64,000 nt of DNA from a virus. The first letter of the stretch is position 1; the number at the start of each line of letters is the position of its first letter. Both the position numbers and the translations under genes were made by a program. Below, in pieces: positions 10,528-26,476 of this stretch. The notes under the pieces were generated by a model, which ran no database searches, was not told the DNA's origin, and saw nothing but the letters and a program-made list of their open reading frames with translations. The stretch covers positions 1 to 64,000 of the IMG/VR virus record IMGVR_UViG_3300030108_004854. The stretch is one strand, 5' to 3'.

Positions 10528-10558
10528 CCTGGGCATGGCTTAGCCAGTAAGTCCCAGG
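10528..10558 (+). promoter_or_regulatory. Covarying GTAAG hairpin, copy at 10528
   Basis: CCTGGG (10528-10533) pairs with CCCAGG (10553-10558); inside, GGCT-T-AGCC forms a second helix and CAGTAAGT lies on the 3' side. One of seven hairpins with the plan CTRGGCA...GTAAG.CCYAG located in front of genes. Confidence 0.7.
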
Positions 10559-10572
10559 CTATCCACAGACCA

Positions 10573-10656
10573 GAGCGAAAGCTCGAACTGCAGGTTGGTT
10601 CACCTGCTCACTCAAACACCGGAGCGAAAGCTCGAACTGCAGGTTGGTTCACCTGC
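10573..10656 (+). repeat. Tandem 35-nt double-hairpin repeat
   Basis: Two identical 35-nt units (10573-10607 and 10622-10656, period 49). Each unit folds as GAGC-GAAA-GCTC, a GNRA-loop hairpin, then GCAGGT-TGGTTC-ACCTGC, a 6-bp stem. The array ends 29 nt before the ATG at 10686, so it would form the structured leader of that mRNA. No riboswitch class known to me matches. Confidence 0.8.
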
Positions 10657-10685
10657 ATTCACAGTACACTTCATCACACTTAACG

Positions 10686-11078
10686 ATGAACATTTTCAAA
10701 GCCGCAACACTCCTTGTACCACAGATCGTCGCTAACTACGACGACGAGACAAGGCACAACAAGGTAGCTGCCACCTGGACCGACCAGGAAGGTTACCGCA
10801 CAACGTACGGCGTGGAGTTCCGCGCAGTACACAACTCAGAACGCATCGCTATCGAGCGAGGCACCAGACAAGAAGACGGTAGCTTTGTCTACGTTGCACC
10901 CAATGGCAACGTTCATACCTGCACCTACGAACGCTTCATGGCCATTGCCAAAGCGCAAGGTGAGCAGGCAATGCACGCACAGTACCGTCGCAATCCACAC
11001 CAGGCTCACTACCAACAAGACACACAATCGCAGGCTTACGAGCGTGTGAATGTGTGGGTACATGAGCCTGCCAACTAA
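10686..11078 (+). CDS. GC-rich hypothetical protein, 130 aa
   Basis: ATG at 10686 is chosen over upstream non-ATG starts because the preceding bases are the structured leader and the CA-rich ATCACAC sequence. The protein has an N-terminal hydrophobic patch (KAATLLVPQIVANY), then a beta-rich middle (YRTTYGVEFRAVHNSERIAIERG) and a His/Gln-rich tail. G/C-biased codons as in the 96-aa gene. No family recognised. Confidence 0.65.
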   Translation: MNIFKAATLLVPQIVANYDDETRHNKVAATWTDQEGYRTTYGVEFRAVHNSERIAIERGTRQEDGSFVYVAPNGNVHTCTYERFMAIAKAQGEQAMHAQYRRNPHQAHYQQDTQSQAYERVNVWVHEPAN

Positions 11079-11123
11079 TAACAATGGGTTGCTACGGCGG
11101 CCCTTTCTTTTTATCTATCCACA

Positions 11124-11348
11124 ATGACTATGGACCTTTACCTAGTAATCCAGTCAACCGATTTCAACGGTGACGGATACTTCCAAGAATTTATTCTTGG
11201 TATCTACGAAGACGGCGATGCAGCTAAACAGGTGCTACATAAACTCATTAAAGAACATGAGGCTGAAGAACCTCATTGCCAAGCTGACATAGATACAGAG
11301 TACTTTATCAAAGAGATGCCACTAATCCCTGCAAAGGTAATCCAATGA
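11124..11348 (+). CDS. Hypothetical acidic protein, 74 aa
   Basis: Two possible ATGs (11124, 11130). Acidic alpha/beta peptide with DLYLVIQSTDFNGDGYFQEF and a helical middle; its stop overlaps the ATG of the next gene (ATGA), showing translational coupling in the accessory operon. Function unknown. Confidence 0.65.
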   Translation: MTMDLYLVIQSTDFNGDGYFQEFILGIYEDGDAAKQVLHKLIKEHEAEEPHCQADIDTEYFIKEMPLIPAKVIQ

Positions 11349-11683
11349 TTACTACTATCAAGACCTACAAAGACAATGGTCCGTACTTACATCAAGAAAG
11401 GTTTGACTACACAGTCGATAACCTATCTGACTTTATCAAACAAGTACGCACCATCATGGAGAGCCAAGACTCTGATGTCATTGGCGTCTATCACGACGAC
11501 ACATTCATAGGCGGATGGACACAGGAATGTGACTATGAACCCGACTATGAAAATGGCGGATACTACTGCGTATCAGCTGAATACGTCAGACCACAACCAA
11601 ACAGCTTTGACTGGGAGTGCATCAAGAAGTATTGCTTCCATTCAGGCACCCCTGTCAAAACCACCATCGATTCAATCACATGA
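11345..11683 (+). CDS. Hypothetical protein, 112 aa
   Basis: Starts by ATGA overlap with the upstream gene and ends by ATGA overlap with the downstream gene. Acidic, Tyr/Asp-rich (FIGGWTQECDYEPDYENGGYYC). No recognised motif; probably a small single-domain accessory protein. Confidence 0.65.
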   Translation: MITTIKTYKDNGPYLHQERFDYTVDNLSDFIKQVRTIMESQDSDVIGVYHDDTFIGGWTQECDYEPDYENGGYYCVSAEYVRPQPNSFDWECIKKYCFHSGTPVKTTIDSIT

Positions 11684-11871
11684 CAACTAACAACATAGAC
11701 AACAAAGTCATCAAGATCACCTGCCGAGATGCCTACGAATATGTAGACATCTTGGAATCAGAGATCAAGATGCTGATCAAGAAAGATATTGTTGGTCCAT
11801 CATTAATCAAACATTATCAAGATCTTCGTGATCGCATAAACATTGCTATCCACACCTATCATCATTCCTAA
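11680..11871 (+). CDS. Hypothetical helical protein, 63 aa
   Basis: ATG at 11680 overlaps the previous stop. The sequence MTTNNIDNKVIKITCRDAYE then a long amphipathic helix (ILESEIKMLIKKDIVGPSLIKH) suggests a two-element fold. Followed by TAATG overlap with the next gene. Confidence 0.6.
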   Translation: MTTNNIDNKVIKITCRDAYEYVDILESEIKMLIKKDIVGPSLIKHYQDLRDRINIAIHTYHHS

Positions 11872-12035
11872 TGACTACCTACAAAATCATTCGCTTCTAT
11901 CACCCATCACAGGGTAAATACAATGAGACAGTTGAGACTGGCCTCACACTAGAAGAAGCCCAAGCATGGTGCAAAGACCCATCCACACGCAAAGACAACA
12001 CGTTCTTTGACGGCTACGAGGAGGAGTACAAATGA
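11871..12035 (+). CDS. Small conserved phage protein (GLTLEEAQAWC...FDGYEEE), 54 aa
   Basis: Starts in a TAATG overlap at 11871. The order YKIIRFYHPSQ, GLTLEEAQAWCKDP and a C-terminal FFDGYEEE matches a very common small phage family that I know from many cyanophages and actinophages (unknown function; beta-strand, helix, then WFDGYEEE-like tail). Well supported as a gene by that pattern. Confidence 0.8.
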   Translation: MTTYKIIRFYHPSQGKYNETVETGLTLEEAQAWCKDPSTRKDNTFFDGYEEEYK

Positions 12036-12208
12036 ACATCTACAACAATGACGACACAACCAAACGTGACTGCGATATTGTTTACGGTGCATTAACCGTA
12101 AGCACTGCAGTATTATTTCCACCGTTAGCAATTATATCCCTCGGGATGTGGTTTGCCGACAGACAACACTATCCATCACACAATACCAAAGATGACAACA
12201 ACAACTAA
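12032..12208 (+). CDS. Small single-pass membrane protein, 58 aa
   Basis: ATGA overlap with the previous stop. Residues about 20-43 (GALTVSTAVLFPPLAIISLG) form a single transmembrane helix flanked by an Asp/Thr-rich N-terminus and a His/Asp/Asn-rich tail. Overlaps the next gene by 17 nt. Likely inner- or thylakoid-membrane peptide of unknown role. Confidence 0.55.
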   Translation: MNIYNNDDTTKRDCDIVYGALTVSTAVLFPPLAIISLGMWFADRQHYPSHNTKDDNNN

Positions 12209-12452
12209 ACAAATCAGAGAAGAAGCTATTAATAGTGCCATCGAGAAAGATTGGCACGTTGCATCAGAAGGCACTGACTTCACTGCATGTGTTATCGCAT
12301 GGCACAAAGACCCAGCTACTAATTGGTGCCGCGTACTTACTGTTGTTGACGGTCAGTACCAAACAGAAACTATACGTTGCACACCAACAGTTGTTGGTTC
12401 AGGTTATGTAACTGACCATCTCAATGATTTTAAACTTACAACTCAATCATGA
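12192..12452 (+). CDS. Hypothetical protein, 86 aa
   Basis: ATG at 12192 preceded by a CA-rich leader (CCATCACACAATACC). Sequence contains an N-terminal helix (TKQIREEAINSAIEK) and beta segments with FTACVIAWHKDP. Alternative upstream starts are less likely because they read through the membrane-protein gene. Function unknown. Confidence 0.6.
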   Translation: MTTTTKQIREEAINSAIEKDWHVASEGTDFTACVIAWHKDPATNWCRVLTVVDGQYQTETIRCTPTVVGSGYVTDHLNDFKLTTQS

Positions 12453-12565
12453 CAATTCAAATAGTACGTGGTAACAACCTAAAGTACGTTACTGTTGACA
12501 GCTACAAAGCACCGGGCATACGTAATAGTATTGCCCGCTTTATCTTTCACTTATTACACAAATGA
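12449..12565 (+). CDS. Short basic peptide, 38 aa
   Basis: Starts in ATGA overlap at 12449 and its stop overlaps the next ATG. Encodes MTIQIVRGNNLKYVTVDSYK and a basic/aromatic C-terminus (ARFIFHLLHK). Coupled spacing on both sides supports translation; too short for function prediction. Confidence 0.5.
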   Translation: MTIQIVRGNNLKYVTVDSYKAPGIRNSIARFIFHLLHK

Positions 12566-12780
12566 CTGAACGCAGAACCCAACAACAAGAGCATTTAGTT
12601 CAACCATTGACACAAACTGATGTTCACATGGTTGAACTACTAGCTCAATTACAAGGTGTACTTCCACGCACAGTTATTGAAATTGCATTACATGAATGGC
12701 TTGAAGCTAACTTCATGCGCATTAATTCATTGCATCGTAATGCAAAAGAGATCCACAATCAACTTAATTCAAAAACATGA
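12562..12780 (+). CDS. Possible ribbon-helix-helix-like DNA-binding protein, 72 aa
   Basis: A beta-like start (LVQPLTQTDVHMVELLAQLQ) followed by a helix-turn-helix pair (GVLPRTVIEIALHEWLEANF) fits the small MetJ/Arc/CopG-type dimer plan, although no family signature is definite. ATGA-coupled to genes on both sides. If correct it would be a small transcriptional regulator of this operon. Confidence 0.5.
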   Translation: MTERRTQQQEHLVQPLTQTDVHMVELLAQLQGVLPRTVIEIALHEWLEANFMRINSLHRNAKEIHNQLNSKT

Positions 12781-12851
12781 AACAACACAAGCACATCCCT
12801 TCTCCTTTCAACAAACAATCTCTAAGTAACAGCCAACAGCCTCTTGATTGA
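12777..12851 (+). CDS. 24-residue peptide ending in SNSQQPLD
   Basis: ATGA overlap with the preceding stop; MKQHKHIPSPFNKQSL then SNSQQPLD and stop. The last 8 codons are a doubled AACAGCC repeat that ends another small frame at 10523 in the same residues. Whether the peptide or only the DNA/RNA repeat is under selection cannot be told. Confidence 0.35.
   Translation: MKQHKHIPSPFNKQSLSNSQQPLD
12828..12841 (+). repeat. Doubled heptamer AACAGCC at 12828
   Basis: Identical to 10500-10513 and also followed by TCTTGATTGAT, giving 26 identical bases with that copy. A hairpin follows at once (12849-12867). Confidence 0.85.
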
Positions 12852-12867
12852 TAAGTTTTACTTATCA
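12849..12867 (+). promoter_or_regulatory. Hairpin after the heptamer repeat
   Basis: TGATAAG, loop TTTTA, CTTATCA: a perfect 7-bp palindromic stem that occupies the same position relative to the repeat as the GTAAG hairpins do elsewhere, but with a different sequence. Confidence 0.6.
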
Positions 12868-12891
12868 TTGCGTACACTTAATCACACCACA

Positions 12892-13194
12892 ATGGACTCT
12901 TCTAAAGAACAACTATCTCGCAAGTCACAAAAAGCAAGATATATACAATATATACAAGTATTAGAGATGCGCATACATTTAGATAAACGTAAAGATAAAT
13001 ATGATTTTGCTGGATTCATTGATGAGTATCATCAGTTATGTATACAAATTGATGCATTATTAAAAATAGTACTTACAGATTTAACAGCAGAAGAAATCAA
13101 AGATGGCTTAGATGAAGTACCACAGGTACGTAGTCTTATTGTCACTAAAGATCTTCAACCAACTACATCTATACACTACACTTCACTCAACTGA
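12892..13194 (+). CDS. Hypothetical helical protein, 100 aa
   Basis: ATG at 12892 directly after the leader ATCACACCACA. Basic N-terminus and a predicted coiled helix (YIQYIQVLEMRIHLDKRKD), later acidic (LTAEEIKDGLDEVPQ). No Shine-Dalgarno sequence. No known family. Confidence 0.6.
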   Translation: MDSSKEQLSRKSQKARYIQYIQVLEMRIHLDKRKDKYDFAGFIDEYHQLCIQIDALLKIVLTDLTAEEIKDGLDEVPQVRSLIVTKDLQPTTSIHYTSLN

Positions 13195-13198
13195 AACA

Positions 13199-13528
13199 AT
13201 GACAACAATTTCATCACTGCCAATCTGGTATTCAGAACGTAATGCATTTAAGTATCACAACAATTTACATGCATTAGATATGATCTATCTGCATGGTCAG
13301 ATAGAACAAGAAGCAGAATTTGATTTGTTAATGTCACCAAATAATGATGTATCTATCGGTGTTTATCCGGTCATCATTAACATTAACGATACAACTTATG
13401 CTTGTACTGCACATGTTTGGAACAACAGGAGACATGGCAATCGCAAAGGCTTAGTTGTTCTTAACACTGACAAAGAAGCAAGAGAGTATGCACATCTCAA
13501 GTTCATTGAGAAAGCTGATCGTATTTAA
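13199..13528 (+). CDS. Hypothetical protein, 109 aa
   Basis: ATG at 13199 (MTTISSLPIWYSERNAF), 4 nt after the previous stop. Mixed alpha/beta with VYPVIININDTTYACTAHVW and a helical charged C-terminus. Unknown function. Confidence 0.6.
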   Translation: MTTISSLPIWYSERNAFKYHNNLHALDMIYLHGQIEQEAEFDLLMSPNNDVSIGVYPVIININDTTYACTAHVWNNRRHGNRKGLVVLNTDKEAREYAHLKFIEKADRI

Positions 13529-13567
13529 TCACACCACATTAAATCTAATCACATCACATCAAACTCA

Positions 13568-13960
13568 ATGACTGACTCACTACTTGCATGTGTCGGATAT
13601 AACGACGACACCACACAGTTTGAAGAACTAACACTCGATGACAAGATCACTGTCATCTGCAACACAGCAATTAGAAAGATACAAAGAGAATACCCAGATC
13701 AATGCAAAGGATATGTAATTGAACGCCACCAAGGCAAACGGTGGATCAAATTAGTATGCGCGGAAATCTATGAGGATGGTCAACGTCGCAACGGAAGTGT
13801 CTGGGCATTCATTGATCCAGCCACACAAGGGGTCTACAAGCCCGCCAGTTGGAAAGCACCAGCCAAGCATGAGAGATATAACCTAGACGACTTCCAAAGC
13901 TTCTATGACGCCGCACGGATGGCCGATTGGTATGGCTCATGGCTATACCTTAGACACTAA
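13568..13960 (+). CDS. Hypothetical protein, 130 aa
   Basis: ATG at 13568 after a CA-rich leader that contains ATCACACCAC and ATCACATCACATC. Contains VIERHQGKRWIKLVCAEIYE and a Trp-rich C-terminus (MADWYGSWLYLRH). Last gene before the 428-nt non-coding gap. No family recognised. Confidence 0.6.
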   Translation: MTDSLLACVGYNDDTTQFEELTLDDKITVICNTAIRKIQREYPDQCKGYVIERHQGKRWIKLVCAEIYEDGQRRNGSVWAFIDPATQGVYKPASWKAPAKHERYNLDDFQSFYDAARMADWYGSWLYLRH

Positions 13961-13981
13961 GCCGACTAGTACATATGAATT

Positions 13982-14026
13982 ACTACAACATAGTTGTGTA
14001 TCACCATGTACCAGCTATGTTGTAGT
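13982..14026. repeat. 12-bp inverted repeat ACTACAACATAG/CTATGTTGTAGT
   Basis: Perfect arms 13982-13993 and 14015-14026 with a 21-nt loop. No T-run follows on either side, so a simple terminator is unlikely; operator or origin structure is possible. Confidence 0.75.
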
Positions 14027-14067
14027 TGTTGTGCAATAAAGAGTAGATTTTCTTTATCTATAAAGAT

Positions 14068-14083
14068 CTGTACATTGTGTGCT
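14068..14083 (+). promoter_or_regulatory. CTGTACATTGTGTGCT box
   Basis: Sixteen bases identical to 42341-42356. Related boxes lie at 14115 (CTGTACATTTGT) and 14136-14151 (CTGTACACTTTGTGCT). The TGTGCT followed by T/A-rich bases resembles an extended -10 hexamer. Confidence 0.65.
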
Positions 14084-14190
14084 AGTACATAAGACCCACC
14101 ATATTATTTATATTCTGTACATTTGTAAGTAATTTCTGTACACTTTGTGCTTATTAATTCTTTACATAGCAGTCCCTCACTACAACCACT

Positions 14191-14203
14191 CACAAATGTA
14201 CAG
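14191..14203 (-). promoter_or_regulatory. Reversed box CACAAATGTACAG
   Basis: Part of ACTCACAAATGTACAG (14188-14203), 16 bases identical to 38208-38223 upstream of the primase-helicase. The bases that follow (TTTTCTATATAAAT...CCCCCC) resemble those after the copy at 42380 (ATTTCTATACTTAAA...CCCCC), indicating a duplicated module. Confidence 0.65.
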
Positions 14204-14295
14204 TTTTCTATATAAATAAAATATATACCCCCCAACTACTCACAACTACACACAACTCTGTATCAACACGATACATTCATTCTTTAACAAGAAGT

Positions 14296-14309
14296 AACAG
14301 CCAACAGCC
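14296..14309 (+). repeat. Doubled heptamer AACAGCC at 14296
   Basis: Intergenic copy, preceded by GAAGT and followed after 14 nt by the hairpin at 14324-14352. Confidence 0.85.
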
Positions 14310-14323
14310 TAATTATTAAGTAT

Positions 14324-14352
14324 CCTGGCATTGCTTGGCATGTAAGCCCAGG
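14324..14352 (+). promoter_or_regulatory. Covarying GTAAG hairpin, copy at 14324
   Basis: CCTGG (14324-14328) pairs with CCAGG (14348-14352); CATGTAAGC lies on the 3' side. The stem differs from other copies by compensating changes. Confidence 0.7.
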
Positions 14353-14388
14353 TATCCATCACATCACACCACACAACAGGAGACAGTT

Positions 14389-14589
14389 ATGTCCCGCATC
14401 AAAAGCTGGATTCACAACCAACTCGACAAACGAAACATGCTCAGGGAAGACATGTACTACAACGCAGACATCGCTTATGAACTAGAGCAGGCCATGCGTG
14501 AAGAAATGGAAGAACCTCAAAACTCAGAAAATCTAGACATCGACCCTAACACCCAATCAACCAATGAATCAAACAACGTACCATTCTGA
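14389..14589 (+). CDS. Small charged protein, 66 aa
   Basis: ATG at 14389 preceded by the CA-rich leader CATCACATCACACCACACAA and, unusually for this region, by a real Shine-Dalgarno AGGAGA. Charged helical peptide (MSRIKSWIHNQLDKRNMLRED) with an acidic Asn-rich tail. Function unknown. Confidence 0.6.
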   Translation: MSRIKSWIHNQLDKRNMLREDMYYNADIAYELEQAMREEMEEPQNSENLDIDPNTQSTNESNNVPF

Positions 14590-14658
14590 CGAATTCATCA
14601 CGGTAATCATTGCAATCATCGCAACACTATTCACTGTTTTAATCAACAACACAATCAA

Positions 14659-15057
14659 ATGGAAACCATCAACATCCACAACCTACACAACCAAGGACTT
14701 GTTGCCTACATACAACGATACCCTCGTAGTGGAGCAGCAAGATATTTCCTCAACCAATACAAAGTTCACGAAGAATGGGAAGATGAAGAACCAACATCAA
14801 TCAAAATCCACCAGGTCTCGCAAGCCTATGGTGGCCCAGAAGAAGGTGGATGGTGGTACTCGACAGGTGAGGCGCAATCAACTCACTTCATCTTCAGCAA
14901 GAAAGGATGTATCAAGCGATGTATCGAACTCATTGATACCTATAACTTAACGAACCAACCTTCTATTGAAACATCACAAGGTAACTTTGCGTATGAACTT
15001 ACACTAGGCACAGGATACGCAAAAAATTATCCTACAGAACGTCCACATTACGAGTAA
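14659..15057 (+). CDS. Conserved phage hypothetical protein (GGPEEGGWWY), 132 aa
   Basis: Contains YGGPEEGGWWYSTGE and the C-terminal ELTLGTGYAKNYPTERPHYE. This pair of motifs marks a widespread conserved phage family of unknown function, so the gene is well supported. It follows a 69-nt gap and precedes a GTAAG hairpin at 15064. Confidence 0.8.
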   Translation: METINIHNLHNQGLVAYIQRYPRSGAARYFLNQYKVHEEWEDEEPTSIKIHQVSQAYGGPEEGGWWYSTGEAQSTHFIFSKKGCIKRCIELIDTYNLTNQPSIETSQGNFAYELTLGTGYAKNYPTERPHYE

Positions 15058-15063
15058 TCAGTA

Positions 15064-15102
15064 CTGGGCATTGTATTTTCCCCGACTACATGTAAGGCCC
15101 AG
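15064..15102 (+). promoter_or_regulatory. Covarying GTAAG hairpin, copy at 15064
   Basis: CTGGGC (15064-15069) pairs with GCCCAG (15097-15102), with an inner TGTA/TACA helix and TGTAAG on the 3' side. It lies between stop 15057 and ATG 15127, followed by AATCACATCACC. Confidence 0.75.
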
Positions 15103-15126
15103 AGAATCACATCACCTTTAATTACC

Positions 15127-15345
15127 ATGCCTAATCGCTATCGTGTCAAGTACAAACATGATCCACCGCCAAATCCTATCCCCGGTGAAAATTACACTGT
15201 TGGTGCAGGTATCTGGTCTGCCAACATTCGTGCCCATGACATTGATGATGCACGACATCAGATCCTGAAGAACTTTCCTTACAAAAGAGCTGATGGAAAG
15301 ATAGTCAACAGAATCATTGTATCCTGTCGCAAAATCTACTACTGA
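15127..15345 (+). CDS. Hypothetical protein, 72 aa
   Basis: ATG at 15127 after a CA-rich leader. Beta strand, Pro-rich loop (YKHDPPPNPIPGENY), then a helix (HDIDDARHQILKNFPY) and a C-terminal strand; an RRM-size alpha/beta fold is possible but no motif proves it. Confidence 0.6.
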   Translation: MPNRYRVKYKHDPPPNPIPGENYTVGAGIWSANIRAHDIDDARHQILKNFPYKRADGKIVNRIIVSCRKIYY

Positions 15346-15348
15346 CTC

Positions 15349-15675
15349 ATGCCTAAAAACATCGTTCCAGATGAAACTCCGTCACCTGACGACCTACAAG
15401 GACTATATGGACTCGCTCAAGCTACAAAGAAGTTTGTCGAGCAAGGCACACCACCAGCTTTTGCTGTCTTTATTAATCCAAAGACTGGCAAAACTTATTG
15501 CACTACTCCAGCACAACTTGAAGGTGGTACTGCACCAGATCAAAAGACTATTGACGCCTTAATCAAAACCATTAACATCAATGACCCGAATTCAACAGCA
15601 CGTCTTCAACAGGGAAGCAGTGAGCAGGAGGGGAGGAGCCCCGACGTACGGGATAACGGAGACACCAAAACGTAA
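15349..15675 (+). CDS. Hypothetical protein, 108 aa
   Basis: Begins 3 nt after the previous stop (MPKNIVPDETPSPDDLQGLYG). Contains FAVFINPKTGKTYCTTPAQL; the last 25 residues are polar and disordered. Function unknown. Confidence 0.6.
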   Translation: MPKNIVPDETPSPDDLQGLYGLAQATKKFVEQGTPPAFAVFINPKTGKTYCTTPAQLEGGTAPDQKTIDALIKTININDPNSTARLQQGSSEQEGRSPDVRDNGDTKT

Positions 15676-15719
15676 GCGTCCTAAATCTAAAGGAAATCTA
15701 ATGTTACTTAAGGAGTTGA

Positions 15720-15887
15720 ATGAGCGAATCAGTTGACCACTACATCGAGTACAGAGATGACATCATGCGTATCTGCCGTGAGTATCAACTAGAAACTCGT
15801 TGCAGTAATGCATTAGTTGCATCGATGTTAATGGATCTAGCACACCGCATTGAAATTAATGACAAAGCGATCTGCCTTCAACTTTGA
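15720..15887 (+). CDS. Small helical protein, 55 aa
   Basis: ATG at 15720 with Shine-Dalgarno AAGGAG 5 nt upstream. Charged helical peptide (MSESVDHYIEYRDDIMRICREYQLETRC...). Overlaps the next gene by 29 nt. Unknown function. Confidence 0.55.
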   Translation: MSESVDHYIEYRDDIMRICREYQLETRCSNALVASMLMDLAHRIEINDKAICLQL

Positions 15888-16128
15888 CAAAGACATCTTC
15901 GGTTTTAATGTAACCGAGCATGGCATCAAAAGCTACAGTAAATCATTTAAGGTTGGTCCATTTAGACAAACGATCAACCTTAATCTTGGCAATGGTCATG
16001 TAAAAGGTACGACATCGATACCTGGCACAGGCTTAGCCAAACGCTACAATATCAGTGACAAAGACTGGCATGACTGGTTTCCGGAAGAGCCTGACTTTGG
16101 ACACAAGCCTCCCATGTGGGAGGAGTAA
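15859..16128 (+). CDS. DUF4236-like protein, 89 aa
   Basis: ATG at 15859 is preferred to a TTG at 15850. The succession YSKSFKVGPFRQTINLNLGNG then TTSIPGTGLAKRYNIS resembles DUF4236, a small beta-rich domain (KxFKIGPxRxNLS...SIPGTGL) often found in bacterial and phage proteins of unknown role. Ends WEE; the stop lies in the heptamer repeat. Confidence 0.6.
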   Translation: MTKRSAFNFDKDIFGFNVTEHGIKSYSKSFKVGPFRQTINLNLGNGHVKGTTSIPGTGLAKRYNISDKDWHDWFPEEPDFGHKPPMWEE

Positions 16129-16140
16129 CAGCCAACAGCC
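16127..16140 (+). repeat. Doubled heptamer AACAGCC at 16127
   Basis: The TAA stop of the preceding gene (16126-16128) overlaps the first bases of the repeat; the class B hairpin follows at 16149. Confidence 0.85.
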
Positions 16141-16148
16141 TGGTTGTT

Positions 16149-16164
16149 AGACCTAGGCAAGTCT
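16149..16164 (+). promoter_or_regulatory. AGAC/GTCT hairpin, class B copy 1
   Basis: AGAC-CTAGGCAA-GTCT, followed by TTAAACTG. A near-identical element is at 16754-16769. Then GTTGTACACAAC, a small palindrome, and the leader ACACCACATCACAC before the ATG at 16196. Confidence 0.6.
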
Positions 16165-16195
16165 TTAAACTGTTGTACACAACACCACATCACAC

Positions 16196-16465
16196 ATGGC
16201 GTACATCACTGATAGACAACAAGACTTCATCATCACTTTGTACAAAAGAGTAGATGAAATTCACTTGTTAGCTTCCAAGCTAGACATGCATGATCCACAG
16301 CGGCTCAAATATTCTGGTGCTGCTGATGAGCTGCTGCGACTTTCTGATCGACTGAAACTTCAGTGGTTGCAAGAAGCTGAGTTACTGGAATCAGTAAAAC
16401 AACAAATTACTGATGAACCAATCCCATCTATTACACCAGAGGAAGAGTATGCAATCAATGCCTGA
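16196..16465 (+). CDS. Hypothetical helical protein, 89 aa
   Basis: ATG at 16196 immediately after ACCACATCACAC. Two amphipathic helices (QQDFIITLYKRVDEIHLLASK and ELLRLSDRLKLQWLQEAELL) suggest a helical hairpin or coiled coil. Overlaps the next gene. Confidence 0.6.
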   Translation: MAYITDRQQDFIITLYKRVDEIHLLASKLDMHDPQRLKYSGAADELLRLSDRLKLQWLQEAELLESVKQQITDEPIPSITPEEEYAINA

Positions 16466-16748: not shown

Positions 16749-16753
16749 CCAAT

Positions 16754-16769
16754 AGACCTGAGCATGTCT
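16754..16769 (+). promoter_or_regulatory. AGAC/GTCT hairpin, class B copy 2
   Basis: AGAC-CTGAGCAT-GTCT followed by TTAAACTGCTC; GAGCA can alternatively pair with TGCTC. Precedes the CA-rich leader and ATG of the PcfJ-like gene. Confidence 0.6.
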
Positions 16770-16805
16770 TTAAACTGCTCTTACTACATCACACCAAACT
16801 ACACA

Positions 16806-18638
16806 ATGAAATTCCAACTGCCTGACCAGATTCAGATGGAGGTCATGAGCTATGACCAGACACGTAAGCGTCTAGCCAAACAACAACGTGACGAAGAAGC
16901 AAGGCGTGGCAATATCAATAGAACCAAAGCTGCTAAATATCCCAAAGGTAATGTCATCTCACTAGGTCTAATCCCTGATGACATTGTTAGTACCAGAGAA
17001 ATGCAAGAAGCCATTGACTTTATCAATGGCACCACAATAAAGAATACAATCAGTCGATTTAGTTACATGGAAGATCCACCAGCTGGACAAACTCGTTTGC
17101 ATGCTGTGTTGTATTGGACAAAACAATATTGGGTCGCAGCATGGATGCCTAAGCGCAAAGATGATGGCTACTTGTATGGCATATCAGTTGCATTTAAAGA
17201 TACAGAAACAGCAAGGAAACAAATGCAGACTAATGAAAGATTATTTGTTAATCGTAAAAGCGGAAGTAAATCATTGATAGATGATCCTGACTTGCAAATG
17301 AGTAAGCGTAAGATTGGTCGAACCAACTGGCTAGTTACAACACAGTTCATTACCCAAGAAGAGATTGAAGCTGGCTATACAACGAATTACATACGTGAAG
17401 TTGATATGAATCACACAATAGAAAGATACAAAGAGCGTACACAACTACATTCAGAAGCAATCATGGAGCTATGGCGTAACATCATGGCTGGTGTACCTCA
17501 ATGGGATCACATTAGGTACAACAATAATGATTTTATACGGATGACAAAGCTAGGTAACAGTATTAAATATGTTGTTAATGATTGTCATATTCCATGTATG
17601 ACACATGAAACCATGTGTAAATTTGAACATACTAATGAGTTCTATCACAAAGTATTCAGTGAATATGGAGAATATGACTGCATTGCACCAGAGTTCTTTA
17701 ACTCACCGTGGTTCCGTAGAAAAGTTAACAAAATGGTTAGTGATATGTCAGTGGCATTTGAGATGGCTGATCCAATCAAAGCATCGATGAAACCTATCGT
17801 TGCACCATTATCCGATATGCATCATTACTTACAAGGAGTTAATGAAATGTATAAAGCTTATCCGTTCTGTGACATTAACCATTTAATTGCTAACGAACAC
17901 CTACTTGAACGTGTTAAGTTTCATATGCCTACTTTAAATATCAGCGAATACGCGCATCGATATCTAACAGAAAATGTGCCGCCAGAACGGTTTATTAATA
18001 TGCTGAAGCAACATCATGATTATTTGATTGCAGAAAGAGCCAAACAAAATCAAGATTCATATAATCATCACTACGATGAAGACGACATTAGTGGTAACCC
18101 ACGGATGTATTGGAGACATTGGGCTGACTCAATGAATATGCTTAATCAAGTGTTAAGACACAATGAAAGAACACCAGAAAATATATTACCTACTGAACCA
18201 AAACGTTATCGCATTAATGAATGGCATGACTTACTAATGAGTCAGACCTGGAAGCTTCGTAACCCTAATGAAAAACTTCCACAGAAACTATTCCCTCAAC
18301 CAGTCAAAGCTGAAAGTGACATGGGCACTTTCACATTCTTCCAGCCCATTGACACGCATCAGGTGGCTGAGTGGGGACAGGCTATGCGGAACTGCGTTGG
18401 TAGTGGTAGCTATGCAGAAGGTGTCAGAAAATTCAGGCACATTATTCTGCTAGCGATGGTTGATAACAAGCCACGATTTACCATGCAACTTACGGTTGAT
18501 AACGGAGAGATCAATATTGATCAATGCACAACGCTACGCAATGGTGGTCAGGATTACAAACTGACAGCAGATGAAAACACTTGTCTCAAGACAGCGTTCG
18601 CTAAAGCGTTGCAGTTCAGAGAGATTCAGCTACGCTGA
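16806..18638 (+). CDS. PcfJ-like protein, 610 aa
   Basis: ATG at 16806 after the leader ACTACATCACACCAAACTAC. The C-terminal 120 residues carry the hallmark of the PcfJ-like family: WGQAMRNCVGSGSYAEGV, then a strand-turn-strand region (PRFTMQLTVDNGEINIDQC) around residues 525-580. PcfJ was named from a conjugative plasmid and homologues occur in many phages, with no established function. The N-terminal 450 residues are helical with no recognised motif. It ends 59 nt before tRNA-Leu. Confidence 0.65.
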   Translation: MKFQLPDQIQMEVMSYDQTRKRLAKQQRDEEARRGNINRTKAAKYPKGNVISLGLIPDDIVSTREMQEAIDFINGTTIKNTISRFSYMEDPPAGQTRLHAVLYWTKQYWVAAWMPKRKDDGYLYGISVAFKDTETARKQMQTNERLFVNRKSGSKSLIDDPDLQMSKRKIGRTNWLVTTQFITQEEIEAGYTTNYIREVDMNHTIERYKERTQLHSEAIMELWRNIMAGVPQWDHIRYNNNDFIRMTKLGNSIKYVVNDCHIPCMTHETMCKFEHTNEFYHKVFSEYGEYDCIAPEFFNSPWFRRKVNKMVSDMSVAFEMADPIKASMKPIVAPLSDMHHYLQGVNEMYKAYPFCDINHLIANEHLLERVKFHMPTLNISEYAHRYLTENVPPERFINMLKQHHDYLIAERAKQNQDSYNHHYDEDDISGNPRMYWRHWADSMNMLNQVLRHNERTPENILPTEPKRYRINEWHDLLMSQTWKLRNPNEKLPQKLFPQPVKAESDMGTFTFFQPIDTHQVAEWGQAMRNCVGSGSYAEGVRKFRHIILLAMVDNKPRFTMQLTVDNGEINIDQCTTLRNGGQDYKLTADENTCLKTAFAKALQFREIQLR

Positions 18639-18640
18639 CT

Positions 18641-18694
18641 GAGATTTAGGCAGCCGAGTAACAATGTTGTTGCGTCAGGCGTAAGCCCTATCTC
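18641..18694 (+). promoter_or_regulatory. GTAAG hairpin in front of tRNA-Leu
   Basis: GAGA (18641-18644) and TAGG (18647-18650) pair with CCTA (18687-18690) and TCTC (18691-18694), with CAGGCGTAAGC on the 3' side. Three nucleotides separate it from the tRNA, so it may be part of pre-tRNA processing. Confidence 0.6.
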
Positions 18695-18697
18695 ATT

Positions 18698-18785
18698 GGG
18701 AGTGTGGCGGAATTGGTAGACGCATCGGACTTAAAATCCGTGGACTGTTATGGTCATGCGAGTTCAAGTCTCGCCACTCCTACCA
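18698..18785 (+). tRNA. tRNA-Leu (UAA anticodon), CCA encoded
   Basis: GGGAGTG acceptor strand pairs with CACTCCT; anticodon loop CTTAAAA reads UAA; T-arm GCGAG-TTCAAGT-CTCGC; long variable arm typical of class II tRNA-Leu; discriminator A and genomic CCA (18783-18785). 88 nt. Phage tRNAs usually help translate codons that are commoner in the phage than in the host; UUA fits an AT-rich phage. Confidence 0.95.
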
Positions 18786-18805
18786 ATCATTTATTACACA
18801 ACACT

Positions 18806-18982: not shown

Positions 18983-19104
18983 CCAGCACCAGGAAACTAC
19001 AAAAACTGATGCTCCCTCAGGACTGACGTAGTTCTTCTGCGTCCCAACACATTCTAAATACATTTGTCTATGCATTGTAAACTCAGCCCGTCGATTTATT
19101 TTCC

Positions 19105-20498: not shown

Positions 20499-20670
20499 AG
20501 ATGCACTTGATCTGATCTACAAAGGTCAAACCAACGTAGCTGTCATGGCAAAAAAAGTAGGCGTCTCATTAGATGAAATGAAACGCCTGTTTGGTTATTA
20601 CGTTAGTCAGCGACCTATTGATCCAGATGTATGGCAAGCTGATGTAAAACCAAGCTGGCCCTGGGCTTAA
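20488..20670 (+). CDS. Small HTH-like conserved cyanophage protein, 60 aa
   Basis: Short helix-turn-helix-like N-terminus (VAVMAKKVGVSLDEMKRLFG) and a C-terminus PDVWQADVKPSWPWA; small proteins ending in W...SWPxA are known to me from cyanophages. Overlaps the zinc-ribbon gene by 11 nt. Function unknown. Confidence 0.65.
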   Translation: MQLEDALDLIYKGQTNVAVMAKKVGVSLDEMKRLFGYYVSQRPIDPDVWQADVKPSWPWA

Positions 20671-20823
20671 TTACTTAAGCCGTTTACGATCTAATTTGGC
20701 TTGGAACTTTTCACGTTCCTGTTTAATTTCATCCCTTGATACCCAAACCGAATGGATTGAATTCAATGTCGGGCTGGTACGTTCGTACTTAACGCCTCGA
20801 TAAGTCAGTGTCTTGGTAGACAT
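20671..20823 (-). CDS. DUF4278-like small protein, 50 aa
   Basis: Minus-strand frame with a strong Shine-Dalgarno (GGAGGAC in the sense of the gene) before ATG 20823. LTYRGVKYE at the N-terminus is the core of DUF4278, a short cyanobacterial/cyanophage family; the rest is a Lys/Arg-rich helix. It lies tail to tail with the plus gene ending at 20670. Unknown function. Confidence 0.7.
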   Translation of the reverse strand: MSTKTLTYRGVKYERTSPTLNSIHSVWVSRDEIKQEREKFQAKLDRKRLK

Positions 20824-20841
20824 GATGTCCTCCGCTAAAAC

Positions 20842-20883
20842 CTAGACCCCGTTCCCTGTCTAGTGAATTGCGCCCCAGTGGGG
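20842..20883. promoter_or_regulatory. Two hairpins in a divergent gap
   Basis: CTAGAC (20842-20847)/GTCTAG (20858-20863) and CCCC-AGT-GGGG (20873-20883) lie in the gap between divergent genes at 20823 and 20917. Candidate operators or leader structures. Confidence 0.4.
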
Positions 20884-20916
20884 TGAACGTACTTGTATTT
20901 TATCACTCATCTTAGA

Positions 20917-23106
20917 ATGAACAAAGCACCTGTTTCAAAGATCACAATGTCAATAGAAAGAGATCCGTACACTGGTGAAATAACTTATTACAATGACGCT
21001 ACTGGAGCTGAAATAACTGAAGCTGAGCATAACTTAGAGCGAGACCGCCAGGCACGTTCAGCAGGTTATGAATCATTTTATGATTACGTACGTCAGGTGC
21101 AAAGAGATATGGAGGAAGAAGCATCGGCATTCATGGAAGACGGTATACCAGATACACTGGATGCACAGGATTTTGAAAGAGCTGCTCTTGATCAACAACA
21201 ACTACAACAACAAGCAGATTTTATAGATCGGCTTGGTCTTAATGATCCACCCCGTGTAAATATGCAGGAGTTAACTCCTGATAACGTATACGAAATGCGT
21301 CAGCTTGGTTTTAATAGTGCACAAGTTTCAGATGCTATTGAACGAAGAAGCAGACAATTAGATGAAGCAGGTGTATCAGCTGAGGAAAGAAACTATAGAG
21401 CAAGAGGTTACGTCGGCAATGACAGATATTTATCTGGAACAGGTGAAGGTCAAACCCTACGGTTTCTTGATCCTGAAATGCAAGCACGTTTTGAAGCAGA
21501 TGTAGCAGCCGAAGAACAACGAATAAGACAAGAAAATAAACCTATCAATCGAGCACGTAGAACCTTAGCTGGAGTCAGAAATAATGTTATAGATTTTCCA
21601 CGGCAAACTGGCCTTTTACTTAATCAAGTTACTGATCGCATTGATGATAACATCACTCAAGTTGTTAGAGGCTATAGAAACATTCTTGATTTAGATCGTC
21701 CTGTTTATGATCCAAAATACCTTCCTGAAGGTGCTAACCCTGACTTTAATTACTACACACAACTACTAGAAGATTCACGTATAGGTTATTCACCTAGCAA
21801 TAAAATTAGAACTAATTTAATGTTACAACCTGATGGGCGTGGATATGATTTTAGCTTTCAAGGTCCAGAAGGTTTTGCAGATTCAAAGAAATTAAAAATT
21901 CAAAATCAAAGAACAGAAGACCTTATTGCAGGCAAGAAACAATATATAGCAGACTTGTATCGCAATAATGAAAAGGCTACTCATTCTATGACTCCTTTTA
22001 AAGATAGAATTGATCAAGAAAACCGAAAGATTAGAGATTATAGATATCGTATTAATTACAATAAGGATAAAATTAATACGATGAAATCACCTACCTATCA
22101 ACCCACTTTGGGTTACATGATAGGAACAGAACTAGATAAAGTAAAACCTGGAGAATACTTTAGTCAAAATCCTATAGGTGGACCAGGAGGTCAAAGAGAT
22201 AAATTGTATAGCAGAATGAGCAAAGGAGTATTGAAAGCTCAACCTTTTGGTTATGCAAAAGTACAACGTATAAATCCAACCACTTGGTTGCGTGATGATG
22301 TACCAATGGAATGGGACCCAGGAACTTTAAAAGACCCTGCAATACGAAAAGCATTTGGTGTACCCAAAGAAACCGATGTATCTATCTACCGTGATAGAAC
22401 AATGTTTGAGCAACCTATTTATCAAAAAGGCGGACCTCTTTCTTCAGGAAAAACAGCAGTCGCTCTTGGTTCGCATGAGTTTAGACTGCCACGTGCTCTT
22501 AGTAATGCAACATTAGGTGGCCTGTATGAATCTATACCATCTGCAGAAGTTATTAAAGCAACTGGTGAAGAAGGCATAGGTGCTGGTATTAAAACATATG
22601 CAAGTGAAATTATGGAAGGATTGCCTTACATGGCAGGTTTAGCTGGTGCTACTTATGTAGTTCCTGCATTAGCAAGTGTTGCACCACCAGTTCTTGGTGG
22701 ACTGGGCGTGTATGAAGCTGGTCGTTCTGTCAATGAATTAAGTAGACAAACAACAGGTGAAACTGCATTATCTAAACTTCAGCAAACAGCAGGCAAGGTA
22801 GCGCCAGGTGTCTTAGGTAAACCATCAACTGGTTCTGCTTATAGATATAACGAAGATGCTAGAGCAAAAGAAGAAAGGTTAAGAAAAATTGCAAGTGGTG
22901 AACTTGTTGAGCCAATCCCACAATTAAATGCTTATACCCCCTTACCAATTTCAATGGTTACTAGACCTCAACAAGAACTAGATGCTTATAGAGATCAACA
23001 GCCAACTGCATCTAACCCATTGGTTCAACGCATCCAACTTGCAGGTAAAAGATTCAATCCAGCTAGAGGTGAGTTTGGTTTAACTGAATTGTTTTTTGGA
23101 CAATAA
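20917..23106 (+). CDS. Large virion-like protein encoded among early genes, 729 aa
   Basis: ATG at 20917 (alternative 20947). Acidic/Gln-rich N-terminal half, Tyr/Arg/Lys-rich middle, then a Gly/Ala hydrophobic stretch (GLPYMAGLAGATYVVPALAS, then VAPPVLGGLGVYEAG) around residues 565-605 like those of the virion proteins at 3.4-9.1 kb. No enzyme motif. Its position between ThyX and DNA polymerase, on the opposite strand from the virion block, is odd; it may be an ejected protein. Confidence 0.65.
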   Translation: MNKAPVSKITMSIERDPYTGEITYYNDATGAEITEAEHNLERDRQARSAGYESFYDYVRQVQRDMEEEASAFMEDGIPDTLDAQDFERAALDQQQLQQQADFIDRLGLNDPPRVNMQELTPDNVYEMRQLGFNSAQVSDAIERRSRQLDEAGVSAEERNYRARGYVGNDRYLSGTGEGQTLRFLDPEMQARFEADVAAEEQRIRQENKPINRARRTLAGVRNNVIDFPRQTGLLLNQVTDRIDDNITQVVRGYRNILDLDRPVYDPKYLPEGANPDFNYYTQLLEDSRIGYSPSNKIRTNLMLQPDGRGYDFSFQGPEGFADSKKLKIQNQRTEDLIAGKKQYIADLYRNNEKATHSMTPFKDRIDQENRKIRDYRYRINYNKDKINTMKSPTYQPTLGYMIGTELDKVKPGEYFSQNPIGGPGGQRDKLYSRMSKGVLKAQPFGYAKVQRINPTTWLRDDVPMEWDPGTLKDPAIRKAFGVPKETDVSIYRDRTMFEQPIYQKGGPLSSGKTAVALGSHEFRLPRALSNATLGGLYESIPSAEVIKATGEEGIGAGIKTYASEIMEGLPYMAGLAGATYVVPALASVAPPVLGGLGVYEAGRSVNELSRQTTGETALSKLQQTAGKVAPGVLGKPSTGSAYRYNEDARAKEERLRKIASGELVEPIPQLNAYTPLPISMVTRPQQELDAYRDQQPTASNPLVQRIQLAGKRFNPARGEFGLTELFFGQ

Positions 23107-23109
23107 AAG

Positions 23110-23136
23110 CTAGGCATCTTTATGTGTAAGTCCTAG
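23110..23136 (+). promoter_or_regulatory. Covarying GTAAG hairpin, copy at 23110
   Basis: CTAGG (23110-23114) pairs with CCTAG (23132-23136); TGTGTAAGT on the 3' side. Between stop 23106 and ATG 23156. Confidence 0.75.
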
Positions 23137-23155
23137 ACTACGCTTTATTTTATCC

Positions 23156-23581
23156 ATGCTTCCTGAAAATCAATTTCATTCCAATCAACCAATGCCGAAG
23201 CCTGCACCAGCAACTATTGATGTTGACAGGACTAAATACTATGACACTCAAGGTGTTGTAGACAGAACATTTATGAGTCGTTTTAGCATCATAAAAGCTG
23301 TAAAGAATGGTCGATTCCCTGCTCCAGAATTTAAAAAACAACGTCATTGCTTTTATTGCAAAAAGAAAGTAGATCAATGGATAGCAGATAATCCAAATTT
23401 TACTAACCTTCCTACACCAAGAACAACTACTACGCTTAATGTAACTTTTTCTGCAGCAGAATTAAAAATGATTAGTAATGCAGCTAAAGCATTGGGTTGT
23501 ACAGTAGATTTTTTTGTTGCAGATGCAACACTCTGGAAAGCCCGTGGCGTAAAAAAACGATTAGAATATGAAAATAATTAA
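23156..23581 (+). CDS. DNA-binding protein, excisionase/AlpA-like HTH plus C-terminal helices, 141 aa
   Basis: YYDTQGVVDRTFMSRFSIIK...GRFPAPEF followed by KKKVDQWIADNP fits the winged-helix plan of AlpA/excisionase-type proteins (helix-turn-helix, wing with FPxP, then x-WxxDxx). The C-terminal NVTFSAAELKMISNAAKALG resembles a ribbon-helix-helix or similar small dimerisation domain. It could regulate transcription of the adjacent replication genes. Confidence 0.65.
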   Translation: MLPENQFHSNQPMPKPAPATIDVDRTKYYDTQGVVDRTFMSRFSIIKAVKNGRFPAPEFKKQRHCFYCKKKVDQWIADNPNFTNLPTPRTTTTLNVTFSAAELKMISNAAKALGCTVDFFVADATLWKARGVKKRLEYENN

Positions 23582-23634
23582 GGGGTTGCAATAAATAATA
23601 AATACCGTAGTCTTCTAAAAGATTCAACAAAACA

Positions 23635-23865
23635 TTGAGTTATTTAATTACTACGGTTATAAATGGTATTCCCCATGCTATTTATCCAAATTCAAATGCT
23701 GGTAAGTTTGAACTAATACAGATAGTAAAAGACAGTGAGATTTCAAAAGCTTTCTGTTCTCCAACTAAAACTGGTGCTGTTCAAATTCTTAATTGGATAA
23801 ATAAAAATGACCAACAGCTTTCATTACAAGAACTCTCAGTTCAACCTGAAGCCAAATTCCTTTAA
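23635..23865 (+). CDS. Hypothetical protein, 76 aa, TTG start
   Basis: The frame opens with TTG at 23635 and has no internal ATG. Compact alpha/beta peptide (SYLITTVINGIPHAIYPNS). It overlaps the first 59 nt of the polymerase gene. Unusual start and overlap lower confidence. Confidence 0.4.
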   Translation: MSYLITTVINGIPHAIYPNSNAGKFELIQIVKDSEISKAFCSPTKTGAVQILNWINKNDQQLSLQELSVQPEAKFL

Positions 23866-25666
23866 TGAAAACTATCTCGTTTTTGATATTGAAACAAACG
23901 GATTATACGATGAAGCAACAGAGTTATTTTGCGTGGCAATACACGATGTCGTACGAAACGAAACTATTGGTTATGGGCCTGGGTCTATTGATAGGGCTAT
24001 TGACAGGTTGGCTTCTGCTACTTGTCTTATCGGTCACAATATAATTTTTTATGATTTACCAGTATTAAAAAAGTTACTAGACTTTAACACCACATCTCAT
24101 GTCATTGACACACTCATCTGCACCAGGCTCATTTGGCCCAAAGAAAAATTACAAGAAGTCGATACAGATCACTACCAAAATGTGCCACCTAAGCTCAGAG
24201 GGTCAGCCTCACTTAAGGCTTGGGGCTACAGACTTGGTAACTTCAAAGACAATTTTACCGATTTTTCTGCGTTCACCCCAGAAATGTTGGAGTACTGTAA
24301 ACAAGATTGTAATGTCACAACCTCTTTATACCACCTCATCACCACTGACCCAATCAAAGCTTCGGCTCTTCGGCTGGAACATGATTTCGCTCAAGCAATT
24401 AATAAACAAATTAGATCAGGCTTTCCTTTTGATACTAATCAATGTTTTAATTTTGTGGATGAACTTGAAGCTAGAAAAAAAATAGTTGAAACAGAACTTA
24501 CTACTAAAGCATTTCCTCCAATTCAACATGAAGAAATCGTAACACCAAAAGCATCAAACAAAACAAAAGGAATCATCAAGGGAGTGCCTTACACTAAAGT
24601 TACTGTTGAACATTTCAATCCTGCTTCACGACAACAAACAGTACGTCGTCTCCAAGATAAGTACGGCTGGGTACCAGAGGCAACAACAGAGAAAGGAAAT
24701 CCAATCTTAAATGATGATGTTCTTTCTCAACTTCCATACCCTGAAGCCAAGCTATTGGCTGAGTATCAGCTGCTAAAGAAACGTCTAGGACAGATCAAAG
24801 ATGGAGACAATGCATGGCTCAAACTTGTTGGTGACGATGGCAAAATGCACGGCGATCTTATTACCAATGGTTGTATCACCGGTCGTGCTAGCCATCGAAC
24901 TCCGAACATGGGGCAGATCCCAGCAGTTTATTCACCTTATGGTGATAGATGTCGTTCGTTATTTGGTCCCCCTCCTGGCCGCATTTTATTGGGTGCTGAT
25001 GCTAAGGCATTGGAACTTCGCTGCTTGGCTGGTTACTTAGCACTATGGGACGGCGGCGAGTATGGCGAAGTTGTCACTGATGACAGCCAAGACATTCACA
25101 CTTACAACCAACAACGATTCGGAGTTACTACACGTGACATTTCAAAACGACTACTCTACGCCGTACTTTACGGAGCTGGCTTCATCAAAGCCGGTACAAT
25201 CGTGGACCCAAAAGAAAAAAATCCCGACAAGCTTAAGCAGTTGGGAAGAGAAGCAATCATGGGTTTCATGGAAGGCGTCCCAGCGCTCCAAAAACTTAAA
25301 GCGACGCTCAAATCTAATCTTGAAAAGCGTGGGCACCTTATTGGTCTTGACCGTAGGCCTTTGTACTGTCGCTCTGAATTCAAGGCCTTAAATGTATTGC
25401 TTCAATCTGCTGGCGCAATTATCATGAAACAAGTTGTGGTTAATCTGCATCAGCTAACAGCTAACAGCCAATTAATATATGGATCTGATTGGGAACAACA
25501 CGCCATGATTCATGATGAAGTTCAGTTGTCTGTGCAACCAGATTTAGTACAGACAATTAAACCTCTGGTATTGGAATCATTTTTAAAAGCAGGAACGTTC
25601 TATGATTTCAAGTGTCTCATTGAAGGAGACATTAAAACAGGAGCTAACTGGGCATTGACACATTGA
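23807..25666 (+). CDS. T7-type family A DNA polymerase, 619 aa
   Basis: Replicative polymerase with proofreading. Exo I is FDIETNG (D27, E29), Exo II IGHNIIFYDLPVL, Exo III YCKQDCNVT. Polymerase motif A is DAKALELRCLAGYLA, motif B RDISKRLLYAVLYGAG, motif C MIHDEVQ; all catalytic carboxylates are present. Somewhat shorter than T7 gp5 (704 aa). Near the C-terminus (QLTANSQLIYG) the DNA carries a variant of the AACAGCC doublet. Its stop lies within a GTAAG hairpin that links it to the SSB gene. Confidence 0.95.
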   Translation: MTNSFHYKNSQFNLKPNSFNENYLVFDIETNGLYDEATELFCVAIHDVVRNETIGYGPGSIDRAIDRLASATCLIGHNIIFYDLPVLKKLLDFNTTSHVIDTLICTRLIWPKEKLQEVDTDHYQNVPPKLRGSASLKAWGYRLGNFKDNFTDFSAFTPEMLEYCKQDCNVTTSLYHLITTDPIKASALRLEHDFAQAINKQIRSGFPFDTNQCFNFVDELEARKKIVETELTTKAFPPIQHEEIVTPKASNKTKGIIKGVPYTKVTVEHFNPASRQQTVRRLQDKYGWVPEATTEKGNPILNDDVLSQLPYPEAKLLAEYQLLKKRLGQIKDGDNAWLKLVGDDGKMHGDLITNGCITGRASHRTPNMGQIPAVYSPYGDRCRSLFGPPPGRILLGADAKALELRCLAGYLALWDGGEYGEVVTDDSQDIHTYNQQRFGVTTRDISKRLLYAVLYGAGFIKAGTIVDPKEKNPDKLKQLGREAIMGFMEGVPALQKLKATLKSNLEKRGHLIGLDRRPLYCRSEFKALNVLLQSAGAIIMKQVVVNLHQLTANSQLIYGSDWEQHAMIHDEVQLSVQPDLVQTIKPLVLESFLKAGTFYDFKCLIEGDIKTGANWALTH

Positions 25667-25680
25667 CATGTAAGCCCCAG
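25648..25680 (+). promoter_or_regulatory. Covarying GTAAG hairpin across the polymerase stop
   Basis: CTGGG (25648-25652) pairs with CCCAG (25676-25680), with ACATGTAAGC on the 3' side. The 5' arm is coding (end of polymerase), the 3' arm is not, then AATCACATCACAC and ATG 25712. Confidence 0.7.
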
Positions 25681-25711
25681 ATCCTACAATCACATCACAC
25701 TATTAAAAACA

Positions 25712-26428
25712 ATGCACATTGCATTTCTTGTCGCTGAAGTCGTTGACAATCCACTGACTAAATATCAGGGGATGGACAATCGAATGAATGTTGTATCTCT
25801 TCGTTTACCTGCTGTAGGTAAAAAGAAAGTTGACACATTAATTGAATACAGGTCTTACAAAGAGATTAATCTTAGAGCGGGAGACTGTGTCCAAATTATG
25901 GATGCATCCATTCGCCACGATTACAAAACTAGAGAATGGTGGTTGATGGGAGGCAATCTTGAACGACGTGAAGCACCATGTCCTCCATACAACTATTGCA
26001 TATTTAGTGGTCGTGTGATCAAAGATCTAGATGTATCTGATCCACGCCAGTTTACTAGTACAGAAAGTGGTTTTCTTATTGCTAAAACCACACTCAGTAT
26101 TACAGCTGGTGGAGGTGAATCAGATTTAATTCCAATTACTGCAATCAATTCATCTGATGCTAAATACAAACCAGCTCAATTATTAGCTGATATGGCAGCA
26201 CGTAAAGGAATGGGTTTAACAGTTAGAGGAACATTAGTTACTGATTCTTGGACAGACAAAGAATCTGGAGAGATTAGATATAAAACCGAAATTATGTTAA
26301 AAGGTTTTACCATGGCTCCTAAAGCTAAAGCTCAAGAAATTAAACCACGTGCTGAAGTGCCTGTTGGTGCGGAACCAAAGTCACTTTGGAAACCGTTAGA
26401 CAGTGAGGATGACAACGATCCTTTTTGA
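25712..26428 (+). CDS. ssb: Single-stranded DNA-binding protein, probably two OB folds, 238 aa
   Basis: Residues about 1-85 and 90-200 each look like an OB fold; the second (CIFSGRVIKDLDV...GLTVRGTLVTDSW...RYKTEIMLKGF) is close to bacterial SSB. The C-terminus DSEDDNDPF is the classic acidic tip that recruits replication proteins. Directly downstream of the polymerase, consistent with a replisome operon. Start ATG 25712 follows the CA-rich leader. Confidence 0.8.
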   Translation: MHIAFLVAEVVDNPLTKYQGMDNRMNVVSLRLPAVGKKKVDTLIEYRSYKEINLRAGDCVQIMDASIRHDYKTREWWLMGGNLERREAPCPPYNYCIFSGRVIKDLDVSDPRQFTSTESGFLIAKTTLSITAGGGESDLIPITAINSSDAKYKPAQLLADMAARKGMGLTVRGTLVTDSWTDKESGEIRYKTEIMLKGFTMAPKAKAQEIKPRAEVPVGAEPKSLWKPLDSEDDNDPF

Positions 26429-26443
26429 AGCTATACTTCCAGC

Positions 26444-26476
26444 CTAGGCATTTGCCCTTGTCAATGTAAGCCCTAG
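26444..26476 (+). promoter_or_regulatory. Covarying GTAAG hairpin, copy at 26444
   Basis: CTAGG (26444-26448) pairs with CCTAG (26472-26476); AATGTAAGC on the 3' side. Between stop 26428 and ATG 26499. Confidence 0.75.

Follow-up and report, generated by a model that had tools for sequence, protein, structure and literature searches.

The window, a 64,000-nucleotide stretch of a 73,064-base cyanophage record, carries seven copies of a hairpin with the conserved strand GUAAG. These appear to represent a new structured RNA family, a conclusion that, on comparative sequence evidence, holds. The record is related to Synechococcus phage S-EIV1: the thyX, polA and ssb genes of the window are syntenic with those of S-EIV1, and the two polymerases are 59% identical. 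All seven hairpins proposed by an earlier sequence-only reading were found on the + strand where that reading had placed them. The refined plan consists of a helix P1 of at least 5 bp ending in GG/CC, one bulged nucleotide (N), a C-G pair, an A/GUAA internal loop and then P2. The features are as follows.

10528..10558, + strand: GUAAG hairpin 1, P1 CCTGGG/CCCAGG, 37.3 bits
10564-10607 and 10613-10656, + strand: two near-identical 44-nt repeats between hairpin 1 and the likely ATG 10686
14324..14352, + strand: GUAAG hairpin 2, P1 CCTGG/CCAGG, 30.9 bits, ATG about 36 nt downstream
15064..15102, + strand: GUAAG hairpin 3, P1 CTGGG/CCCAG, 26.5 bits, ATG 15127
18641..18694, + strand: GUAAG hairpin 4, TAGG/CCTA with outer GAGA/TCTC, 16.9 bits, directly 5' of tRNA-Leu
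18698..18785, + strand: tRNA-Leu(UAA), the one tRNA found in the window by ARAGORN
23110..23136, + strand: GUAAG hairpin 5, P1 CTAGG/CCTAG, 36.8 bits, ATG 23156
25648..25680, + strand: GUAAG hairpin 6, P1 CTGGG/CCCAG, 31.8 bits, overlapping the polA stop, ssb ATG 25712
26444..26476, + strand: GUAAG hairpin 7, P1 CTAGG/CCTAG, 28.3 bits, ATG of a DUF5895 gene at 26499

Covariation and anatomy of the hairpin

GGCA...GTAAG with at least four P1 pairs occurs seven times on the + strand of the window and once on the - strand, and 200 dinucleotide shuffles of the window gave a mean of 0.27 and a maximum of 3. The window copies do not stand out in folding energy (z -0.3 to -1.9); the evidence for structure is therefore comparative, lying in covariation and not in thermodynamic stability. 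A scan with a single polymerase sequence returned no relatives, and an alignment of two polymerases was needed to recover the 80 related contigs, most of which carry the element. A descriptor search found 189 distinct copies on the gene strand versus 1 on the other strand, where distinct means deduplicated by sequence only, the IMG/VR contigs being partly redundant.

We next consider P1, for which copies were chosen on GGCA/GTAAGNCC and P2 only, leaving the remainder of P1 free. Among the related contigs this selection yielded 109 distinct copies on the gene strand, compared with 2 on the opposite strand, while scrambled-core controls gave 0-2 copies. All three further P1 pairs are formed in 99 of the 109 copies, and the first of them is G-C in 65, A-U in 30, U-A in 12 and G-U in 2. 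With the selection reversed and made on P1, each of the 46 short copies has its second P2 pair intact. An alignment of 118 distinct rows, fitted to the model and hence biased towards it, gave a covariation score of 0.380, compared with which shuffles scored 0.131 (sd 0.009) and slid partners reached no more than 0.127. A comparison of matched with mismatched arms is free of any alignment: exact-pattern searches of 2.9 million viral contigs found the matched arms CTAGG/CCTAG and CTTGG/CCAAG in 82 and at least 120 stretches, respectively, but arms with one mismatch, CTAGG/CCCAG, in only 5. The claim that paired bases change together is thus borne out in the relatives, where compensatory changes far exceed both the shuffled and the slid controls, as in a genuine structured RNA. 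Two exact-pattern matches, in L236 (within an 807-aa ORF) and L255, are probably due to chance. The pattern GGGCATN{4,30}TGTAAGCCC, tried on IMG/VR, was dropped in favor of 18-19-base patterns because, from its length, most of its matches would be expected to arise by chance.

When the core was substituted one position at a time, GTAAG gave 189 distinct copies on the gene strand, ATAAG 17 and GAAAG 12; the latter two cores are tolerated, and other single substitutions are near background. The C of CA and the last G of GUAAG were also varied together in all 16 combinations, and on the gene strand only C-G (215) and U-A (4) were found, indicating that these two positions pair with each other. 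The four copies with U-A seem to form a single related group. The first P2 pair is Watson-Crick or, most often, U.U. Beyond it P2 covaries freely and the terminal loop is unconstrained; the P2 region ranges from 8 to 45 nt, and contiguous P2 is only 2-3 bp in 51 of 120 clusters.

Placement, spread and tandem arrays

The copies were held to lie between a stop codon and the next start or directly before tRNA-Leu. This placement stands, except that the 25648 copy overlaps the last polA codons (stop 25664-25666). For the 10528 copy a correction is needed: the two 44-nt repeats come next, and the likely start is the ATG at 10686. The 18641 hairpin begins 2 nt past the stop of a 624-aa PcfJ-like gene and lies 4 nt upstream of the tRNA; it is present, but its core-adjacent helix has only 4 bp, its outer helix is interrupted and its score is the lowest of the seven. 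Relatives have a full copy at that place.

The same pattern is seen beyond the window. Only 3% of copies fall within ORFs, versus 64% of random positions. P1 mostly starts 2-8 nt past a stop codon, and the next ATG, taking start codons as the first ATG of open frames, is mostly 22-32 nt 3' of the hairpin. A possible start occurs within 150 nt of 288 of 291 distinct copies, and for one of the three others a tRNA-like sequence comes next. At 25 of 26 tabulated tRNA-Leu(UAA) loci the distance from the end of the hairpin to the tRNA is 1-4 nt. In two relatives (L124:6229-6303 and L132:6904-6978), a terminator-like hairpin with a T8 run against tRNA-Leu replaces the GUAAG hairpin. TANNNT is not enriched upstream of the hairpin, giving no sign of a promoter directly 5' of it.

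All 24 phage records searched whole contain the element, with 1-9 matches each, nearly all of them in the block of early genes on the polymerase strand. A single late-strand copy is present in several phages, with a second conserved hairpin after it. In L305 and L307-L310 this second conserved stem is GGACACGAATCTTTGATTCACGGGAGCC, and it precedes a gene with a signal-peptide-like start.

The search of related phages suggested by the sequence-only reading showed that the element recurs in many relatives and in other lineages, with similar placement. For uncultured contigs, the hosts given here are those inferred from relatives. Phages related to S-CBS2 (L231 and others) have a single copy before an ArdC-like gene, T7-like cyanophages (L205 and others) have a copy a short distance 5' of the RNA polymerase gene, and two high-G+C groups with unassigned host (L237 and L239) have copies just past stop codons. 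Among cultured phages, S-EIV1 (L121) has two clear copies, at 10787-10827 and 11478-11537, and no convincing copy was found in S-CBP1, KBS-P-1A and 47 kb of S-CBS2. The strict pattern gave no cyanobacterial match in 84,980 genomes; its five matches in Bacteroidota and Treponema bins were judged chance or coding.

About a dozen further contigs (L341, L346, L360, L362, L314, L367, L350 and others) carry the element in tandem arrays, of which two are:

L341:2913-3660, tandem array between two conserved phage genes
L346:6225-6910, tandem array between two conserved phage genes

The noncoding array unit of about 140 nt, present in up to five copies, consists of the GUAAG hairpin, a T-rich variable spacer (51-144 nt) and then a second hairpin with the consensus AAGUYYGSCUGUACUUAACAGSC, whose arms covary (GCC/GGC, GGC/GCC, ACC/GGU). 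Spacers are partly common to different phages, in changed order. In L360, L362, L314, L367 and L350, too, the array is flanked by two conserved phage genes. RecT and exonuclease genes lie near the arrays, and no cas gene was found among ten array-flanking proteins searched. The array is possibly a set of small RNAs.

Several other features of the window deserve mention. The sequence AACAGCCAACAGCCT is repeated at 9759, 9943, 10500, 12828, 14296 and 16127 (+ strand), with 8 matches at no more than two mismatches versus 0.16 expected; two of its copies lie 28 nt upstream of the hairpins at 10528 and 14324. Each of the 44-nt repeats after hairpin 1 contains small inverted repeats (GAGCGAAAGCTC; GCAGGTTGGTTCACCTGC). 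A match to the glutamine-II (downstream-peptide) riboswitch (20841-20892, - strand, 44.3 bits) precedes a 50-aa ORF (20671-20823, - strand), at a site inside the early + strand block. Two large early proteins that adjoin hairpins have no assigned function: the 624-aa PcfJ-like protein (16764-18638, + strand) and a 737-aa protein (20893-23106, + strand) with only a weak DUF2532 match.

Proposed function and its alternatives

Among the functions listed in the sequence-only reading, a processing site or a protein-binding RNA is the likeliest. In our estimate there is an even chance that the element is a protein-read signal that directs RNA processing or defines or stabilises RNA ends. A protein would recognise the intercistronic hairpin as RNA, through P1 and the internal loop, and the hairpin would mark cut sites or stable ends of long co-transcribed RNAs. 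If the cut fell within or next to the GUAAG strand, the upstream RNA would keep P2 as its 3'-terminal hairpin, and the cut would release either a downstream mRNA with a 30-40 nt G-poor open leader or a tRNA with a short 5' leader. The recognising factor is more likely host-encoded, since unrelated cyanophage lineages carry the element and no nuclease gene common to them was noticed. Among the phage proteins there was no RNase candidate, the listed domain matches being DNA nucleases and unknowns only. It also counts against this function that only 7 of the 22 junctions listed in the window carry the hairpin.

Translational control is an unlikely alternative, although several observations speak for it. 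A protein or the ribosome would bind the hairpin and set the expression of early genes that lack a Shine-Dalgarno sequence. The narrow spacing between hairpin and ATG fits such a role, as does the leader: the last 20 nt before the ATGs of hairpin genes contain 4% G, and a Shine-Dalgarno sequence is present in 2% of hairpin genes, compared with 29% of - strand genes. Moreover, where neighbours differ, the hairpin is kept with the downstream gene in 24% of pairs versus 9% with the upstream gene, although related genomes are not independent; this tendency counts against processing and is what translational control would also predict. On the other hand, the + strand genes without a hairpin likewise lack Shine-Dalgarno sequences (4%), and we therefore rejected the idea that the hairpin substitutes for one. 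Translational control also makes little sense directly 5' of a tRNA, where the hairpin lies in nearly all relatives, or in noncoding array units. End definition is favored because it covers mRNA junctions, the tRNA 5' side and the noncoding arrays, the last two of which translational control misses.

Still less likely is a transcriptional element, that is, a nascent-RNA pause or put-/nut-like antitermination or attenuation signal, with host RNA polymerase as its target at every junction. The element does seem to act as RNA, at junctions and on the transcribed strand, and two relatives have the T8 terminator-like hairpin at the tRNA junction instead. Since no phage RNA polymerase was found among the listed domain matches in the window, host RNA polymerase would be used, which also counts for this explanation. 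However, no U-run follows the stem (T makes up 28% of the 15 nt downstream), in agreement with the earlier view that terminators are unlikely, and the element is present in many copies per operon, not in one near a promoter, with array units repeating it every ~140 nt.

A ribozyme that cleaves itself, or a small-molecule aptamer, based on the A/GUAA loop could account for a strict loop sequence with free stems, but it is improbable given the few conserved unpaired bases, the lack of a metabolic theme in the downstream genes and the occurrence of the element before a tRNA and in arrays. Least credible is a DNA element (an ssDNA hairpin for replication, packaging or a virion RNA polymerase promoter, or a mobile palindrome): copies are multiple, dispersed and mostly confined to one strand of the early gene block, but their placement tracks stop codons, start codons and the tRNA 5' end, their strand follows that of the genes, as in the late-strand copies, G.T but not C.A is seen among the first two P2 pairs, and the length of the P2 region varies.

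Returning to processing and end definition, a broader reading is conceivable, which we hold more tentatively. One nuclease or binding protein would read the A/GUAA loop, common to several cyanophage lineages, and parse precursors into single-gene mRNAs, tRNA-Leu and, in one phage group, ~140-nt array RNAs, in effect a processing code of a new kind. The presence of the element in several lineages and its absence from Rfam point to an unrecognised step in cyanophage RNA handling. The strict loop predicts one specific, findable partner, and the arrays of small noncoding units, a separate finding, were unexpected and can themselves be tested.

Comparison with known systems

The view that the hairpin belongs to no known class was upheld: Rfam 15 had no match at the hairpins, even at E-values of up to 1-5, which for covariance models are rough. 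The arrays likewise match no Rfam family, and no paper describing the element was found in a literature search largely without subscription journals. Among the closest known systems are manA, wcaG and PhotoRC-II, structured RNAs in the 5' leaders of cyanophage genes that were also identified by comparative genomics (PMC2864571). However, these families are in Rfam and their models do not match the element, which is present in each genome as several short copies, placed ahead of replication genes, a tRNA and array units. With intrinsic terminators the element shares a short G+C-rich hairpin at gene ends, but it has no U-run, its internal loop is strict and a gene nearly always comes next.

CRISPR repeat hairpins are cut by Cas6. 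They offer an analogy only, in that the arrays too would be precursor RNAs whose variable segments are set apart by a repeated hairpin; unlike CRISPR repeats, the ~140-nt units end in a different second hairpin, and their stems vary while the loop is fixed. The R sites of T7 are RNase III processing sites between the T7 early genes; they need a helix of about 20 bp (about two turns) and have no strict loop sequence. Like them, the element is a hairpin with an asymmetric internal loop between consecutive co-transcribed early genes, and if it were processed, the upstream RNA would end in a 3' hairpin and the downstream RNA would begin with a short leader. Unlike them, it has a nearly invariant loop and a P2 of often only 2-3 bp, a poor fit that makes RNase III itself unlikely. 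Of the known systems, the element would thus work most like the T7 R sites, minus their helix length.
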